64,000 bases of DNA from Verrucomicrobium sp. (GTDB taxonomy: Bacteria > Verrucomicrobiota > Verrucomicrobiia > Methylacidiphilales > UBA1321), in contig JAFIGT010000011.1 of assembly GCA_017849585.1 (NCBI GenBank), positions 1 through 64,000 on the forward strand. The letters are read 5' to 3'. Of the stretch, positions 5,243 through 47,899 are shown in pieces (the stretch's first letter is position 1; each line of letters starts with the position of its first letter). The notes beneath the pieces are model-generated. The model saw only the letters and a program-made list of their open reading frames with translations, made no database searches and had not been told where the DNA came from. The position numbers and the translations under genes were made by a program.

Positions 5243-8200
5243 TTAGGCGGGTTCGGCTGGGATTTCCTGTGGATCGGCGAGGAGGAATTCCAGATCGGCC
5301 TTGGTCAGGCTGCCGGCGAAGCCTTGTTCGCCGAGGACATCCTGCACCAGTTGCGCCTTGCTCTGCTGCAGGTGCCAGATCTTTTCTTCGACCGTATCGC
5401 GGGTGACGAGGCGGTAGGCGATAACCGTGCGGTCTTGCCCGATACGATGCGTACGATCGATGGCTTGCGCTTCCACGGCGGGATTCCACCACGGATCATA
5501 GAGAATTACGTAGCTCGCCGAGGTGAGATTTAACCCTGTTCCCGCCGCCTTGAGCGAAAGCAGGAAAACGGACGGCTGCGGATCGTTCTGGAAATTCGCC
5601 ACCACCTCGCTGCGGTTCGTGGTCTGGCCGGTGAGCATGTAGTGCGGACGACCGCGCTCAATGAGCTCGGCCTGGAGCAATTTCAACATCTCCACAAACT
5701 GACTGAACACAAGTACCTTGTGACCTTCCGCGTGGAGCTGGTCGAGGAGTTCGAACAGTGCGGCCGTCTTGCCCGAGCCGAGCAACTTCTTGCCGCCTGC
5801 CAGAGCGGGATGACAGCAGATCTGGCGCAAGCGTGTGAGCGCGGCCAGTACGTGAATGCGGCCCTGATCGGGATCGACCTCGCGCAAGGCCTGACGGCTG
5901 CGTTGCAATTCGGCGAGATAGAATTTCCGCTGACCCTCGGTCAGTTCGCAATCGATGCGTTCCTCGATCCTGTCCGGCAGATCTTGTGCGACCTGCTTTT
6001 TCAAGCGGCGCAACACAATCGGCCGCAGTCGACCCGAGAGATGCGACCGCGCCGCGGGCGATGCCCCACGATCATATTGGTCGGTGAACTGGTTGCGATT
6101 CGGCAGATAACCCGGATGCACAAAATCGACGATGCTCCACAAATCGAGCAGCCGGTTTTCCAGCGGCGTGCCGGTGAGGGCGAGCCGGTGCTGCGCATTC
6201 AACATCTTCGCGGCCTTCGCTACGAGGGAATCCGGGTTTTTGATATTCTGCGCTTCGTCGAGAATGACAGAGCGGAATTGATACTTCTTGAGCGACATCA
6301 AATCGCGTCGCAGCAGCGCGTAATTAGTGATGATGAGATCGTACTGCGGAATTTCCTCCCGCATGCCATGGCGGTTCGCCCCGGCGGTGAGCGCGAGCAC
6401 CTTCATGCCCGGCGTGAACTGCTCCGCTTCGCGTTGCCAGTTAAACACGACACTGGCCGGGCAAACCACGAGACTCGGAGATGGACCTTCCTTTTCGCGC
6501 AGATGCTCGATCCAGGCGAGCGACTGGATCGTTTTGCCGAGACCCATGTCGTCGGCCAGAATCGCGCCGAGTTTGAGCCGTGCCGAATAGACGAGGAAGT
6601 TGAACCCCTCGTGCTGGTAGGGACGCAATGTGGCCTTGAGGCCGCCGGGGAGATTCTCGGTGGGAATGCCTTTGAAATCGGCCAGCGTGTCACGCAGCTT
6701 GTTGAGTTCCGCCTGAAATTCCTTGTCGGAAAAATTTTGCAGTGCCTCCCAGGTCGAGGACTGCGTTCCGGCCAGTTGCAGCGCGCTGATTGTTTGCTCC
6801 GTCGCGCTGTTGCCATCGGTGAAGCCGAGTTCGGCCAGCGCATTGATCATTGTGCCGAGCTGCTCCGCTTCCTCGCGTTGGAGCCACGTGCCATTGCCGA
6901 GCTTGATGTAAGGATCATCGCTCTGCTGCAGCTTTTGCCAGTCGGACGGAGTGAGCCGCATGCTCTCCTCTTCCCATTCTGTGCGCACGGTGAACCAGTC
7001 GACGCCGCTCGATTGAATGCGGATCTTGGGGAAGCTGTGTTTCTTGCCGTTGATGAATTGCTGAAAGCGCTTGTTGCCGTAGTACGACCACTGCGTCGAC
7101 CGCTCCTGCCAGAGCTTCACCAGCTCGGGAATGCGTTTGCCGTGCAAGGTCTGCCACCACCCGGGTTCGTCGGGTCGGCCGCACAATTCTCCCGCCTCGC
7201 CATTCCACCCCGCCAGCCATTCCTGAGCCAGCGCGCAATCGGTTTCCGCCGGGATCTCATCCCAAATCTCGTTGCTGGTTTCGCTCGTTACGGTGTGGTT
7301 ATGCGTTTCCTCGATGATCTCCTCATTTTCCGGCGCGGGTATTTCCTCGACGGTGTGACCATTGTGCAGGGCTGCTTTCGGCGGCAGCTTGGCCCAACCG
7401 AAGGAGGTCCATTCCCACGACGCATTACTATAGCGCGCCTGGGCGATGAGGCGAATCTGGAGCACATCTTCCTCATCGAGATTGAAGTAGAAGTGGGCTT
7501 TGGCCGGAATCTGGCGCAGATGCACTTTCACCTGCGATTGCAGATTCGGATAGCGCCGCAGCAAGTGCGGCAGGAAGTCGCGCGAAGCGGCGGCCTCCAG
7601 CCGGGTCGGACCATTCTTCAACGCGAGAGCCAGGATCGAGCGCGGCGGCCGTTCGATCAGGCGGTAAAAGCAGCCTTTGACCAGCACCAGCTCCAGTTCG
7701 ATCCGTCCATTGTCGCCTTTTGGTGCAAGAAAAAGTTTCGCATCCGCGAGCGGTTCGCGCAGACCGGCGGCAGTCGTGACTTCAAATTCGAGTCGCATTG
7801 CCGCATTGCGTCCATTCTGCCCATTGGAATCGGCTTCGAGTTTCGGCACGATCCGCGCGGGCACAGCGTTGTACTCGACCGCCCCGTTGCCCTCTTCGTA
7901 GCGGCAACGACCGCTCTGGCCCCATTGCTGCAACCAGACAAGGAGCGAACGGTTATCGGTGAGAAAGGGGCTGCCGTGCTTATGCTTTTCCGTGGCAAGC
8001 AGGGCGAAATAATCCGACAGCCAGCGCAGCAACGTTGCGTCTTCGATGCTGAAAAGTTCCGGCCGATGAGCTAGTTCGTTGCACAGACCGCGGACCTGGA
8101 AAAAGTTGCGGGCTCCCTCGCGCAGCTTAGGTGAATGAGCGCGCAGTTCGATCGAGACATGGTTCTGCAGCGGCTCCATGCCGCCCGTCACCTTCCACAC

Positions 8201-18702: not shown

Positions 18703-18748
18703 GGCAGGGCTGAGCCCTGCACCCGGTAGCTGATTTGCTATGCAAATC
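18703..18748 (-). repeat. Dispersed palindrome, copy 2, plus a second 3-nt-loop hairpin
   Basis: GCAGGGCT (18704-18711) and AGCCCTGC (18713-18720) are the second copy of the block at 10288-10315, on the opposite strand. Next to it, GATTTGC (18732-18738) and GCAAATC (18742-18748) form a hairpin with a TAT loop. Both lie upstream of secA. Confidence 0.75.
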
Positions 18749-28302: not shown

Positions 28303-28331
28303 AGAGGATAGGGGGCAAACGCCCCCCGGCA

Positions 28332-29387
28332 TCAAAAGCCGACGGCCTTGAGGACGGCTTCTTTGGTGGGGGGGACAACCTTGAAAGTACTGCCGACCTT
28401 CATCGCGGTATCGGGATCTTTGAGGCCGTGACCGGTGAGGGTCGCGGTGATCACGCTTCCAGCCGGGATCTTGCCCTGCTTTGAGGCTTTGATCAGGCCC
28501 GCGAGCGGCGCGGCGCTGGCGGGTTCGCAGAAAACGCCGTCGAGTTTCGCGACGAGACGATAGGCTTCGAGAATTTCCTCATCGGTCACTTTGTCGATCT
28601 GGCCGTTCGATTCTTTCAGCGCGTTGACTGCTCCCTGCCAGCTGGCCGGGTTTCCGATGCGGATGGCGGTGGCGATGGTCTCGGGTTTTTCGATAATGCG
28701 ATTCTCCACCAGTGGTGCGGAACCGGCCGCCTGCCAACCGAACATACGGGGCGTCGCTTTCGCCACTCCTGCCGCATGATACTCCTTGAAGCCCTTCCAG
28801 TAGGCGGTGATGTTACCGGCGTTGCCGACGGGCAGAAAATGGAAGTCGGGGGCGCGGCCAATCGTGTCGCAGATTTCGAACGCGGCCGTTTTCTGGCCTT
28901 CAATGCGAACGGGATTGATCGAGTTGACGACTTCCACGCCGGGCGTTTCGCCGAGTTCGCGCACGATGCGCAGGGCGTCGTCAAAATTGCCTTCGATTGC
29001 GACAATCTCCGCGCCGTACATGATGGCCTGTGCCAATTTGCCGAGCGCGATTTTTCCGCTGGGGAGAATGACGACGCACTTGATTTCCGCGCGGGCGGCA
29101 TAGGCGGCTGCGGAAGCGGAGGTGTTGCCGGTGCTGGCGCAGATGACGGCGCACGCATTGTTTTCCTTGGCCTTGGAGACGGCCATGGTCATGCCGCGAT
29201 CCTTGAAGGAGCAGGTGGGATTTAATCCTTCGAATTTCAGATATAGCGAAATGTCGCCGCCCACGTGCCGGGCAAAGCGGGGCGCGGGAATCAATGGGGT
29301 GTTCCCTTCCAAAAGCGTGATCACCGGCGTCTTGTCCGTCACCGGCAATCGCGAACGATATGTCTCAATCAGTCCCTTCCAACTCAT
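28332..29387 (-). CDS. thrC: Threonine synthase
   Basis: 351 aa, the short bacterial type. PLP-dependent conversion of phosphohomoserine to threonine. Seen: [15 protein letters not shown], the PLP lysine Lys62 in [25 protein letters not shown] and [13 protein letters not shown] (phosphate cup). It lies downstream of hom with a hairpin cluster in the 146-bp gap, so the two may share a transcript with a partial stop between them. Confidence 0.96.
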
Positions 29388-29404
29388 ACCAATACCTTTC
29401 TTGA

Positions 29405-29527
29405 TGGAGGACTCCGTCCTCCAAACCTCCTGCTAAAGGGGCAACGTGACGTTGCATCCAGTAAAATGAGATCAATGGGTCCAGCGTCACGCTGGTCCTT
29501 GATCGGGGGTGTGGGGGCAGAGCCCCC
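29405..29527 (-). repeat. Composite palindromic repeat, variant copy between hom and thrC
   Basis: Read on the minus strand: GGGGGC-TCT-GCCCCC (29513-29527), ACACCCCCG, an outer GATCAA/TTGATC pair around CCAGCGT/ACGCTGG (29481-29495), then GCAACGT/ACGTTGC (29441-29455), GCAGGAGGTT, and TGGAGGAC-GGA-GTCCTCCA (29405-29423). The outer modules and their order match 47740-47899; the middle differs. Confidence 0.75.
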
Positions 29528-29533
29528 GATAGT

Positions 29534-30829
29534 TCACGCGAAATCCTCCACGCGCAGGCGAACCGGCGCGTCCTTGATCGTCTCCAACCGCGCGATTTCG
29601 GCGAGCGCGGCGGCAAAGTGTTTTTCCGGGGCATCATGCACCATGATGATCAGGGGCACTTGATCGCCCGCGTGGCCTTCCGGTTGGATGACCGACGAGA
29701 TGCCGATATTGTGTGCCGCGAAGATGCTGGCCACCTTGGCCAGAACGCCGGGTTGATCGACCACATTGAGCCGCACGTAATAGCGCGACACGATTTCATC
29801 GATGGTCTTGAGCTTCGGATAAAGAGCTTCGGTGCCGACCGAGCGACATTTGCGTGAGGTGGGCAGGTGGAGTGCCACCTCGGCAATATCGCCGAGCACA
29901 GCGCTGGCGGTGGCGTCGGCGCCGGCACCACGTCCGTAGAAAAGCGTATCGCCGACGACATCACCCTGCACGAAGATCGCGTTGAACACGCCGTTGACGG
30001 ATGCGAGCACGTGCTTTTGTGGGACGAGCGTGGGATGGACGCGCACTTCGACCGCGCCGCTCTTGTCGGATTTGATGATGCCGAGCAGTTTGATCTCGTA
30101 GCCGAGTTTGCGGGCGTACTGGATGTCGAGACGGGTGACATTGCGGATGCCCTCGGTGAAGAGATGCTCCTCGGGAATCCAGAAACCGTACGCGATGGCG
30201 GCGAGAATGGCGGCCTTGTGCGCGGCGTCGTGACCGTCCACATCGAGGCTTTCATCCGCTTCGGCGTAGCCCTTGGCCTTCGCATCGGCGAGTGCCTCGG
30301 CATAATCAATGCCACGCTCGGCCATATTGGTGAGGATATAATTGCAGGTGCCGTTGATGATGCCGTAAAGGGCATTGATCCGGTTGGCGATGAGTCCTTC
30401 GCGCAGGGACTTGATGATCGGGATGCCACCGGCGACGCTGGCTTCGAACAACAATTGACGTTCCTGTTTCGCTGCAAGAGCAAAGAGTTCTTCGCCATGC
30501 TTGGAAAGCAACGCCTTGTTGGCGGTGACGACGTGCTTGCCCTTTTGCAAAGCGGTCTTGATCAGCTCGTAGGCATGCGTGGTGCCACCGATGAGCTCCA
30601 CGACGAGATCGATTTCGGGATCATCCACGAGCGCGCGCCAGTCGTCGCTGACAAAGGCGGCGGGAATGCCGAGACGTTGGACACTGGCGGGGTCGCGGGT
30701 GGCCACGCGGGTGATGGAAATCTCCGCGCCGGTGCGGCTGCAGAGCACGTCAAAATTGGATTGGAGATGACGCCAAACGCCACCACCAACGGTACCGGTT
30801 CCAGCAAGTCCTACGCGTAGATGATTCAT
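29534..30829 (-). CDS. hom: Homoserine dehydrogenase with ACT domain
   Basis: 431 aa. Reduces aspartate semialdehyde to homoserine for threonine and methionine. NAD(P)-binding GLAGTGTVGGGV at the N-terminus, TANKALLSKHGEEL, ASVAGGIPIIKSL, NGTCNYILTNM and YAEADESLDVDGHDAAHK in the catalytic domain, and a C-terminal ACT domain (about 350-425) that usually binds threonine for feedback inhibition. Divergent from the small membrane gene at 30938. Confidence 0.97.
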   Translation of the reverse strand: MNHLRVGLAGTGTVGGGVWRHLQSNFDVLCSRTGAEISITRVATRDPASVQRLGIPAAFVSDDWRALVDDPEIDLVVELIGGTTHAYELIKTALQKGKHVVTANKALLSKHGEELFALAAKQERQLLFEASVAGGIPIIKSLREGLIANRINALYGIINGTCNYILTNMAERGIDYAEALADAKAKGYAEADESLDVDGHDAAHKAAILAAIAYGFWIPEEHLFTEGIRNVTRLDIQYARKLGYEIKLLGIIKSDKSGAVEVRVHPTLVPQKHVLASVNGVFNAIFVQGDVVGDTLFYGRGAGADATASAVLGDIAEVALHLPTSRKCRSVGTEALYPKLKTIDEIVSRYYVRLNVVDQPGVLAKVASIFAAHNIGISSVIQPEGHAGDQVPLIIMVHDAPEKHFAAALAEIARLETIKDAPVRLRVEDFA

Positions 30830-40055: not shown

Positions 40056-42170
40056 ATGACTTATCTTGCCGAACAGGTTGGGAGTGTGCTGCTGGCGGTG
40101 GCGCTGTTTCCGGTGCTGCTCTATTTGCCGGGCAAGATCCTGCTTTTTCGTTTCCCTTTCCTGCGACCGCTATTCCCGGAATCCCTCGGCGCGGAACTTC
40201 TCCTCTCGATGGCGGTGGCCCCGATCACGCTTTATCTTCTGCAACGATTTGCCGGGCCGACCTTCGCTACGCTGATTCTGGTGGGACTCTACATCGCGTT
40301 TCTGCCGCACCGACTGCCCGTTGTTTCACCGGAAACGCCACCGGTCCCCCGGCGCGGATTTCGCCCCTACCTGATCGCCGCGCTGGCGTGGCTGGCGCTG
40401 GTGATTGTGATGAATGTGGATCTGCCGTGCGGTAATCGCCTTTACGCCGCGACGACGGCCTTCGATTGGTCCAAGCATGTCATGGTCACCGATGCCATCG
40501 CGCGCGACGGGATTCCGCCCGCGAATCCGGCCTTCCATCCGGGCGAGACGATGCCGCTGTGCTACTACTACCTGTGGCACAACGTCTGTGCGTTTTTCAC
40601 GGTGGGGAGTTGGATTTCGCCCCGTGCGGCCGTGCTGGCGAGTGTCTTCTGGGCCGGGGTGGCGCTCTTCGCGGTACTGCATCAATTCCTCTCGCTGCTC
40701 TATCCGCCGGACCCGACGCGGCATTCGTCGCGCCGGTTGTCCCTGCTTTTGCTCCTCAGCATCGGTGGTCTCGCCTCGCTGCTGCTGGCCATTCGCGTGG
40801 CGTTGTACCTCTACAGTGGCGAACCGCTGCGGCTCGATTTTCTCTCGGTGCTGCACACGGGTAGCGATCCGGTTTTCGGCTGGTTGAACACGTTGATCAC
40901 CACCCCGCATCATGCGGCCGCGCTGGTGATCACGTTGACCGGCTTTCTGCTGCTCCGCACCGCATCGGTCACCGCGCTCCGCTCGCGCCGGTTGCCCATT
41001 CTGCTTGCGGGATTGGCCTTCGCCTCCGCCGCCGGGATGTCGCTCTGGATCGGCATGGTCGCGGCCGCCATCGCGGTGGTCTGGCTGGTATTTCTCCTCA
41101 CGCGCGGCGATCTTCGCGAGATCGCCCTGTGGCTCGGCGCGGGAGCGGTCGCGGCGCTCGCGATCCTGCCGCTCTTTCTCGAGCTGAATCATGCGAGTCA
41201 ACTGACCGAGGCGCCGCTCGGCTTTCACATCCGCGGATTCACCTTCACCCATGCGCTCGGTGAACCGTGGAAATCGCTGATCGATTTCCTCTGCCTGCCG
41301 CTGAACTACAGCATCGAGATCGGTTTCCCGCTGCTTGGCGCGTTGCTGATCTGGCGCGTATGGGGCTTGAACGCTTCTCTGACGCCGCATGAACTTTTCC
41401 TGCGCGTGATGTTCTGGACGAGCCTGATTCTCGTGTCGTTCGTGGCCTCCACCGTGCGACATAATGATTTCGGCTGGCGCGGTGTTCTCTTCGCCCAAGC
41501 CGCCTGCGTGTTGTGGTGCTGGCCGCTCTTCCTCTCGCTGTTCCCGGCCTTGACCGGAGCGCAATCGACCCTGTGCGCGCGGGCGGCGATTCGCTTTCCG
41601 CGCCTATGGAAGATCACACTTTTCGCGCTCGGTTTCGGCTTCCTCTCCGCCGTGGTCGATCCGCTGATGGTGCGTTGCGCGAACGCGCTGCTGGATTGTC
41701 CGAAGCTGGTGACCGATGCGCCCTACTCGAGCCTCGCCTTGCCGGATGATCACCACACCGCCGAGCGACTCGCCGCCTATCGCGAGGGGTACAACTGGCT
41801 GCGGCAGCACACGCCGCGCCCGGCGCGCATCGCGCTGAATCCGGATCATCACGTGGAAGCGCCGTTCTTCCTCTACGCGAACCGTCAGGCGATTGTGGCG
41901 GACTTGTACAACAGCACGATGTTCGGCATTCGCCGCGAGAATTACGAAGGATTGCTCGCGCGTCTCAAACCGCTCTTCGCGACAAAACCGCCGCTCTGGG
42001 TCGATGTGCGCGCCACACTCGCGCCGCTCGGTGCGGATTATCTCGTCCTGCGCTCGGATGATCCCGCGTGGAATCACTCCTCCGATTGGCCCACGCCTCT
42101 CTACCACAACGCGCATCTCGCTGTGTACGACTTAGGGGCGCTGCCCCCACTCCCCCGCCAAAGGGAATGA
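40056..42170 (+). CDS. GT-C-like polytopic membrane protein (DUF2298/YYY-like)
   Basis: 704 aa with at least twelve hydrophobic segments and a 150-residue soluble C-terminal part. An extracytoplasmic loop near residue 135-175 has FDWSKHVMVTDAIA and MPLCYYYLWHN: the acidic residue and the YYY run recall GT-C glycosyltransferases and the archaeal/Chloroflexi YYY family (DUF2298). Activity on polyprenyl-linked sugars is inferred only. The last residues (ALPPLPRQRE) are encoded by a repeat unit, and the TGA stop at 42168-42170 is the loop of a hairpin. Confidence 0.82.
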   Translation: MTYLAEQVGSVLLAVALFPVLLYLPGKILLFRFPFLRPLFPESLGAELLLSMAVAPITLYLLQRFAGPTFATLILVGLYIAFLPHRLPVVSPETPPVPRRGFRPYLIAALAWLALVIVMNVDLPCGNRLYAATTAFDWSKHVMVTDAIARDGIPPANPAFHPGETMPLCYYYLWHNVCAFFTVGSWISPRAAVLASVFWAGVALFAVLHQFLSLLYPPDPTRHSSRRLSLLLLLSIGGLASLLLAIRVALYLYSGEPLRLDFLSVLHTGSDPVFGWLNTLITTPHHAAALVITLTGFLLLRTASVTALRSRRLPILLAGLAFASAAGMSLWIGMVAAAIAVVWLVFLLTRGDLREIALWLGAGAVAALAILPLFLELNHASQLTEAPLGFHIRGFTFTHALGEPWKSLIDFLCLPLNYSIEIGFPLLGALLIWRVWGLNASLTPHELFLRVMFWTSLILVSFVASTVRHNDFGWRGVLFAQAACVLWCWPLFLSLFPALTGAQSTLCARAAIRFPRLWKITLFALGFGFLSAVVDPLMVRCANALLDCPKLVTDAPYSSLALPDDHHTAERLAAYREGYNWLRQHTPRPARIALNPDHHVEAPFFLYANRQAIVADLYNSTMFGIRRENYEGLLARLKPLFATKPPLWVDVRATLAPLGADYLVLRSDDPAWNHSSDWPTPLYHNAHLAVYDLGALPPLPRQRE

Positions 42171-42241
42171 TTCCCTTTGGAAACCCCACATTGGGCCGAA
42201 TTTGCTTTTTACGCAGACGTAAAAGTTCGAATTCGGCCCAA
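42135..42241 (+). repeat. Composite palindromic repeat unit, copy 1
   Basis: Three hairpins in series: GGGGC/GCCCC (42135-42147); CCAAAGGGAA / TTCCCTTTGG with TGA loop (42158-42180); and a near-perfect long stem beginning TTGGGCCGAATT and ending AATTCGGCCCAA (42191-42241), apical loop in ACGCAGACGT. ACTCCCCCGC and AAACCCCACA link them. Confidence 0.85.
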
Positions 42242-42335
42242 GTGAATTTCAAACGCAAATCTTTACCATTTGAGGGGGCATGAGAACGCGGGTTTCTATC
42301 CTCGTATAAGGTATGAACTCTTTGAGAAAAACTCC

Positions 42336-42441
42336 CTTTAGGCGGCTGACATCTTTTGCGTCCGCGCAAAAAAGTCAGCCGCCTAAAGAAGAGGATTCTC
42401 AAGGGGCTCAGCCCCTTGAGCGGGGGGTGGGGCGGAGCCTC
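42336..42441 (-). repeat. Composite palindromic repeat unit, copy 2 (inverted)
   Basis: Read on the minus strand: GGCTCCGCC, ACCCCCCGC, CTCAAGGGGCT/AGCCCCTTGAG (42398-42420), AGAATCCTC, then a long stem CTTTAGGCGGCTGAC / GTCAGCCGCCTAAAG (42336-42388) with an inner CGCAAAA/TTTTGCG part. It faces copy 1, so the two units lie between the genes at 42170 and 42448 in converging orientation. Confidence 0.85.
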
Positions 42442-47739: not shown

Positions 47740-47899
47740 GGGGGCTCTGCCCCCAGACCCCCGCTCAAGGAAATGATTTCCTTGAGAATCCTCGCTTTGC
47801 GTTTTGATTTTTTCCGCAGTGGAAAAAATCAAAACGCAAGATGGGGTTCCCAGGGTATCATACCCTGGGCAGGAGGTGTGGAGGACGGCGTCCTCCACA
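47740..47899 (+). repeat. Composite palindromic repeat unit, copy 3, followed by two more hairpins
   Basis: In order: GGGGGC/GCCCCC with TCT loop (47740-47754); CTCAAGGAAA/TTTCCTTGAG with TGA loop (47764-47786); a perfect 19-bp stem starting TTGCGTTTTGA and ending TCAAAACGCAA with a GCAGT loop (47797-47839); CCCAGGGTA/TACCCTGGG with TCA loop (47849-47869); TGTGGAGGAC/GTCCTCCACA with GGC loop (47877-47899). The lspA ribosome-binding region begins at its right end. Confidence 0.9.

Follow-up and report, generated by a model that had tools for sequence, protein, structure and literature searches.

Why should the spacer between hom and thrC hold a repeat unit whose ends recur elsewhere in the window (the whole 64,000-nucleotide stretch of DNA that was analysed), wrapped around a middle of a different kind? 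We take the neighbouring genes to be hom, thrC, cobQ and lspA from their translations. The unit, at 29405-29527 on the minus strand, occupies the spacer, beginning 6 nt beyond the hom stop codon (29534-29536) and ending 17 nt before the thrC ATG (29387). The sequence-only reading had described it as the end modules of another unit, at 47740-47899, set around a pair of swapped hairpins, and had proposed that modules are exchangeable. On re-reading the sequence all the module letters were as given, and the end modules around a different middle were confirmed; that middle is better described as a single nested element, and the unit resolves into the following parts.

29513 to 29527, minus strand: end module A, GGGGGCTCTGCCCCC, a GGGGGC-TCT-GCCCCC hairpin at the 5' end of the unit in the hom-to-thrC direction; the same in the sister species between hom and thrC
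29504 to 29512, minus strand: A linker, ACACCCCCG, which with A makes up the left terminal inverted repeat, its pairing partner being CAGGAGGTTT plus C
29496 to 29503, minus strand: left arm of side hairpin B, ATCAAGG-A (ATCAAGG at 29503-29497), as compared with intact B hairpins, CTCAAGGAAATGATTTCCTTGAG; split open by the nested element
29441 to 29495, minus strand: nested REP-like doublet, CCAGCGTGACGCTGG - ACCCATTGATCTCATTTTACTGGAT - GCAACGTCACGTTGC, assigned from family counts, with its core found once each in this genome and that of the sister species (CCAGCGTGACGCTGG at 29495-29481, a 25-nt spacer, GCAACGTCACGTTGC at 29455-29441)
29433 to 29440, minus strand: right arm of the side hairpin, CCCTTTAG, derived from B' on comparison of units
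29424 to 29432, minus strand: C linker, CAGGAGGTT, counterpart of the A linker and including CAGGAGGT (29432-29425)
29405 to 29423, minus strand: end module C, TGGAGGACGGAGTCCTCCA, a hairpin TGGAGGAC-GGA-GTCCTCCA; the same in the sister species between hom and thrC

The module matches exceed chance. Allowing up to three mismatches, GGAGGACGGMGTCCTCC matches the window five times against 0.53 expected, a number never reached in shuffles, and GGGGGCTCTGCCCCC has six exact copies in the genome, where its reversed-letter control has none. As DNA the unit folds far better than shuffled sequence (z -6.5), mainly into four local hairpins on the strand; as RNA it also folds well (z -5.5), with a single long hairpin spanning the whole unit as a further fold. 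A scan of 29200-29750 for a GC-rich stem followed by a T run found no terminator-like site, and a promoter reading of the same interval was likewise empty, so that both were rejected as interpretations of the unit. Membership in a known RNA family was also rejected, as the window has no Rfam match at gathering score and the unit of the sister species yields only two sub-threshold matches to a miRNA family, on both strands, which we take to be chance.

The end modules belong to a dispersed repeat family, here called A/C, which we traced in the organism's own genome, in a sister species and in a more distant congener (G000, G002 and G001, respectively, where handles are needed). With up to three mismatches, the A pattern is found at 26 sites in the own genome, 30 in the congener and 52 in the sister species, against 0-3 for the reversed control, and the C pattern at 14, 47 and 18 sites, respectively. 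Of the 62 genomes of the order, the 59 others all lack the C pattern, among them nine of the same taxonomic family, and within this set the A/C family is therefore restricted to its genus. Upstream of thrC, one genome of that taxonomic family, G003, agrees in sequence with the named record Verrucomicrobia bacterium LW23, and the window is placed in the Verrucomicrobiota accordingly. A strict A-linker-B pattern matched only one of 387 genomes of the phylum, a weak negative because that pattern recovers just three of the 26 sites in the own genome; the C pattern tests the distribution better.

All 27 candidate stretches in the own genome, all 37 in the sister species and 21 of 47 in the congener were scanned for complete units, and a script delimited 49 of them, 67-378 nt in size. 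The ends are inverted in every case, 38 units running from A to C, 11 from A to A and none from C to C, so the shared module order expected of genome-wide copies is present. In a typical unit two inverted ends, A and C, each able to form a hairpin, enclose the side hairpins B and B' and, between these, a long central hairpin D. Aligned by eye, A plus its linker is an imperfect inverted repeat of C plus its linker. The common class, of about 156-162 nt, reads A - linker - B - D - GGGGTT - B' (CAAGGGTATCATACCCTTGG) - CAGGAGGT - C, where B is often CTCAAGGAAATGATTTCCTTGAG; a class of about 300 nt has two D hairpins, and mini units of 67-74 nt are without D. The type of side hairpin tracks the size class, and three units (L241, L209 and L229:1201) have a C end on a body or side hairpin belonging to the 300-nt class. 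Further units in the window include the following.

47740 to 47899, plus strand: ordinary full unit A-B-D-B'-C, with a DNA fold of z -11.1; kept at the same place in the sister species (el 18)
42134 to 42441, plus strand: unit of the A...A' class, about 308 nt, with A matches at 42135 (plus) and 42422 (minus), two long D hairpins and an AT-richer middle; outside the 49 script-delimited units

Units of the family accompany dozens of unrelated genes, and some lie between convergent stops. Gene contexts were drawn from a crude ORF caller with which most units overlapped a called ORF, and we therefore restrict the count to seven clear convergent contexts; in all seven both stop codons lie within 17 nt of the unit, which there sits flush between gene ends. 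Contigs start or end inside units at G000:C36:22, C27:50 and C6:33, and in the congener at G001:C194, C226, C323 and C324. With many contigs broken in this way, the repeats interrupt assemblies and our copy numbers are undercounts.

The central hairpin is free in sequence and constrained in pairing. Across the 28 A-C units with recognised D borders there are 22 distinct D arms, and over the first 16 positions from the apex the two arms of one copy pair at 0.906, against 0.517 between arms of different copies. Two same-site pairs between the own genome and the sister species (el 18 and el 20) carry changes on both sides of the stem, TTTTGG..CCAAAA being matched by TTTTGA..TCAAAA, and GGCGGC..GCCGCC by GGCAGC..GCTGCC. 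REPIN spacers are described as behaving likewise, with variable sequence, conserved pairing and compensatory changes (PMC3116915).

The middle of the hom-thrC unit is not of this kind. Its two palindromes, CCAGCGTGACGCTGG and GCAACGTCACGTTGC, were rightly recognised in the sequence-only reading as variants of one motif: they are the two ends of the CARCGTNACGYTG family, which is distinct from A/C and is found at 83 sites in the own genome (control 2) and 177 in the sister species (control 0). In the loci examined, doublets of CARCGTNACGYTG are spaced 40-93 nt apart and 33 of 41 clusters are single. Among 12 inspected cases in A-family units the doublet adjoins a B-type arm, on its AAGG or CCTT side, in 11 (the exception being L237), and about five of the 12 keep arms on both sides, as in CTCAAGG-doublet-CCTTGAG; these counts come mostly from loci chosen for A-family ends and thus show where in a unit the doublet sits, rather than a preference for units. 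Because the doublet adjoins B-type arms in A-family units, the unit at 29405-29527 is a mini unit whose side hairpin holds a REP-like doublet, and the supposed pair of exchanged hairpins is one insertion. GTAA or GTAG follows closely downstream of the nested CARCGTNACGYTG palindrome in only eight of 64 palindrome readings. Elsewhere in the window, at 18704-18748, GCAGGGCTGAGCCCTGC-ACCCG-GTAGCTGATTTGCTATGCAAATC is a GTAG-tagged REP-like palindrome adjoining another palindrome, and its GTAGC motif also follows some copies of CAGCGTGACGCTG (for example at L018, L211 and L292). A lone REP doublet at L204:1451, with 52-nt spacing, has GTCATCCTGAGCTTGTCGA on both flanks and is perhaps a piece of another dispersed repeat.

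Comparison with the sister species shows how such a unit may arise. Flanks at unit sites are 86-100% identical between the two genomes, mostly 93-98%, and thrC is 98% identical. For 17 of 24 units of the sister species a flank was found in the G000 DNA examined, with both flanks at 13 and one at four. At three of the 13 the same unit is present in the own genome (el 13, 18 and 20); at three the interior is changed or lost and one or both ends are kept (el 2, which is hom-thrC, el 14, and el 22, a full unit in the sister species and a 70-nt mini unit at the same place in the own genome); at three the resident unit differs in orientation (el 15, inverted) or in class (el 16 and 19); and the remaining four hold nothing more than a lone hairpin, part of a REP or other DNA (el 3, 8, 10 and 17). 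From these same-site comparisons, and from the congener, which has no unit between hom and thrC, turnover of units is fast. The empty sites sought in relatives are thus represented by hom-thrC in the congener, and none of the 13 sister-species sites with both flanks found is cleanly empty in the own genome. At one further site (L224 and L250; G002:C4 and the start of G000:C41) the two genomes hold units in opposite orientation with different D cores.

In the sister species two inverted units flank thrC, an ordinary full unit with a D core between hom and thrC and a composite between thrC and cobQ. The hom-thrC units of both genomes share their ends, namely the loop CTCTG, the linker allele ACA, GACGGAG and the flank, and the two units start and stop at exactly the same bases. 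The ends of the sister's thrC-cobQ unit instead read CGCTG, ATA (the linker allele there) and GACAGAG, yet it shares 68 nt of core, without a difference, with the own genome's hom-thrC unit. With up to three mismatches, the 43-nt core of that unit occurs once in the own genome, once in the sister species, hence nowhere else in either assembly, and not at all in the congener. At thrC-cobQ the own genome has a remnant only.

28310 to 28330, plus strand: solo A-like hairpin between thrC and cobQ; the sister species has the composite with the same core there (el 3)

Since the sister species has the same ends and a different middle at the same spot, the interior of the element is replaceable with its ends kept, and at hom-thrC the interior appears to have changed as the ends stayed. 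Short of two independent insertions at one and the same base, the locus cannot be explained unless a core was replaced at least once between retained ends. To that extent the exchangeability proposed from the sequence holds: the unit is composite, and interiors are replaced between conserved ends. Free exchange does not, given the fixed order of ends and side hairpins bound to size class.

We consider it likely that the hom-thrC unit is a REPIN- or MITE-like element that took up a nested REP doublet and had its core exchanged across thrC by short gene conversion. The unit would be a small, non-autonomous relative of palindromic mobile elements, with inverted hairpin ends A and C and an interior that need only fold, mobilised by an enzyme acting in trans. 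A full unit may have lost its D core through deletion between the side hairpins, leaving a mini unit, and a REP-like doublet of the other high-copy family would then have inserted at the tip of the side hairpin that was left. Short-tract conversion between the inverted units flanking thrC could have exchanged the composite core and the ordinary core, such that the ends at hom-thrC stayed and the core changed; the second unit would subsequently have been lost from the own genome. Mobilisation in trans, this order, and conversion in preference to another copying route are inferred.

Independent arrival of different units at a hot target in the hom-thrC spacer seems unlikely to us, and has the strongest claim among the rivals. 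Other sites do hold an inverted unit (el 15) or one of other class (el 16 and 19) in the two genomes, and the boundaries of A-C units are biased: among 34 of them, 24 have T at -1 and 32 have A at +1. Together the bias and these other occupants point to some target preference. Separate insertions would nonetheless have had to strike the same base on both sides and to bring the same alleles at three variable positions of the ends, and the core in the own genome is otherwise known only from across thrC. A functional RNA, with the unit kept by selection as a leader, attenuator or terminator that regulates thrC, is quite improbable. In its favour, hom and thrC point the same way on either side of the spacer, shuffled sequences fold much less well as RNA, and stems covary among copies. 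Against it, the family recurs at dozens of genes with nothing in common and between convergent stops, the interior at this site differs in the sister species and the congener has no unit there, and both the terminator scan and the Rfam search were empty.

Free shuffling of hairpin modules, as put forward in the sequence-only reading, is largely refuted and now very improbable. The many distinct D cores and the three units joining 300-nt-class parts to a C end would be expected of it, whereas an order of ends without a single C-C pair in 49 units, side hairpins that follow size class, and a new middle that is one nested doublet would not. Least credible of all is a misassembly in which the core of one repeat was placed between the ends of a different one. 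Contigs often end in units (as at G000:C36:22, G001:C194 and C226), but this unit lies inside a contig of 139,678 bases with co-linear flanks, and because its core occurs once in the G000 assembly there is no second copy to misjoin.

Among the genomes examined no transposase was found that carries A/C ends. The sole Y1 gene found in the own genome is frameshifted and has neither an A/C end nor a REP palindrome nearby, and we therefore rejected a REPIN with a resident RAYT. This Y1/RAYT-like gene (L241, G000:C19:14354-24354, at 7626-7913) has no REP hairpins around it, and the DNA about it reads by eye like part of an RHS-type gene. Of ten Y1 loci in G000, G002, G003 and G004, from incomplete assemblies, none has A/C ends or the nested palindrome, and the congener, the genome richest in C ends (79% complete), has no Y1 match. 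Y1 genes of relatives are accompanied by distinct hairpins of their own (L278, L281, L283, L282, L284 and L286), for example CCTCCGGCTCTGCCGGAGG in G004 and CCTCGGAGCAGAGCTCCGAGG in G003, and perhaps represent different REP-RAYT pairs. An IS110-type mobiliser was rejected on the basis of zero matches in the own genome, the congener and the sister species. Nor was an autonomous parent found in the stretches examined, in which end pairs 0.42-3.5 kb apart were confined to neighbouring units or units with assembly gaps.

Flanks were tested in 45 of the 49 units, those with N or short flanks being left out. Target duplications of at least 3 nt occur in seven of the 45, against a shuffled mean of 2.7 and maximum of 8, and so do not stand out from chance. 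A stop-triplet count was set aside, since the control for it falls in coding DNA. Flanking inverted repeats scoring at least 16 are present at three of the 45, all in the congener (three of 11, at L260:10616, L271:1065 and L263:1201; none of ten in the own genome, none of 24 in the sister species). These congener units sit as if in the loop of a terminator-like hairpin of the flanking DNA, and one more with an assembly gap, L260:12636, which is outside the count, looks similar by eye. General targeting of host hairpin loops was rejected, as loop-like flanks are seen only in the congener. With neither an end-carrying transposase nor target duplication found, the case for mobility is built on copy number, turnover between species and restriction to the genus.

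In these properties the A/C units work like REPINs or MITEs, and differ from each. REPINs are REP doublets that form hairpins (Bertels and Rainey 2011, PMC3116915), and the likeness extends to two inverted palindromic ends, a spacer of conserved length and variable but pairing sequence, solo ends, long palindromes derived by deletion, and alternative folds, either into a single long hairpin or into a clover of several small ones, all as described in that paper. Inverted ends around a hairpin spacer are what we find here, both in end order and in D-arm pairing. The REPIN tag GTAG (or CGTC) is absent from A/C ends, A being followed by ACCCCC and C preceded by GGAGGTTT, and none of the ten Y1 loci has a RAYT gene flanked by A/C or nested palindromes; these two points separate the units from REP-RAYT systems. 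They are also longer than REPINs, with five hairpins and a second repeat family nested in a side hairpin. MITEs resemble them in a size of 70-300 nt, inverted ends, non-coding and intergenic character and many copies in one lineage (PMC3733652). Terminal inverted repeats, that size range and want of coding capacity are all found here; unlike in MITEs, neither a target duplication nor a parent insertion sequence was found, and each A/C inverted repeat is itself a hairpin.

Enterobacterial BIMEs are intergenic composite arrays in which one palindromic unit alternates in orientation, whereas here a nested element serves as the core and is of another family than the ends. The BOX composite of Streptococcus pneumoniae likewise has fixed end modules and variable inner ones, and among the pneumococcal BOX, RUP and SPRITE repeats one element can likewise lie inside another; in BOX, as presented in that account, inner variation is mostly in boxB copy number, whereas the inner part of A/C units is replaced by unrelated palindromes or another repeat family (PMC3049150). 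REPs are also preferred targets of insertion sequences (PMC1525189). Hairpin and double-hairpin elements of mitochondria are similarly lineage-specific, fill intergenic regions, vary between close relatives and have no known enzyme, but they are mitochondrial and no such architecture of ends and core is described in the account on which we draw (PMC2800124). Our literature search, with most subscription papers outside its coverage, returned no prior description of the A/C family.

More broadly, it is possible, if rather doubtful, that the palindromic repeats of this genus are cassettes, in which a process acting on extruded hairpins swaps the apex or core and spares the arms. If so, a single mechanism would explain the doublets in B hairpins, the paired yet variable D cores, the mini units and the exchange of cores across thrC, and would work with no classical transposase in the genome. 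At hom-thrC itself the two genomes differ only in the core, and the other copy of that core lies just across thrC, making this a traceable core replacement in an element whose ends and interior have different histories. The case may thus help to tell gene conversion from transposition, and bears on how bacterial palindromic repeats spread, and on why their interiors vary with pairing kept.
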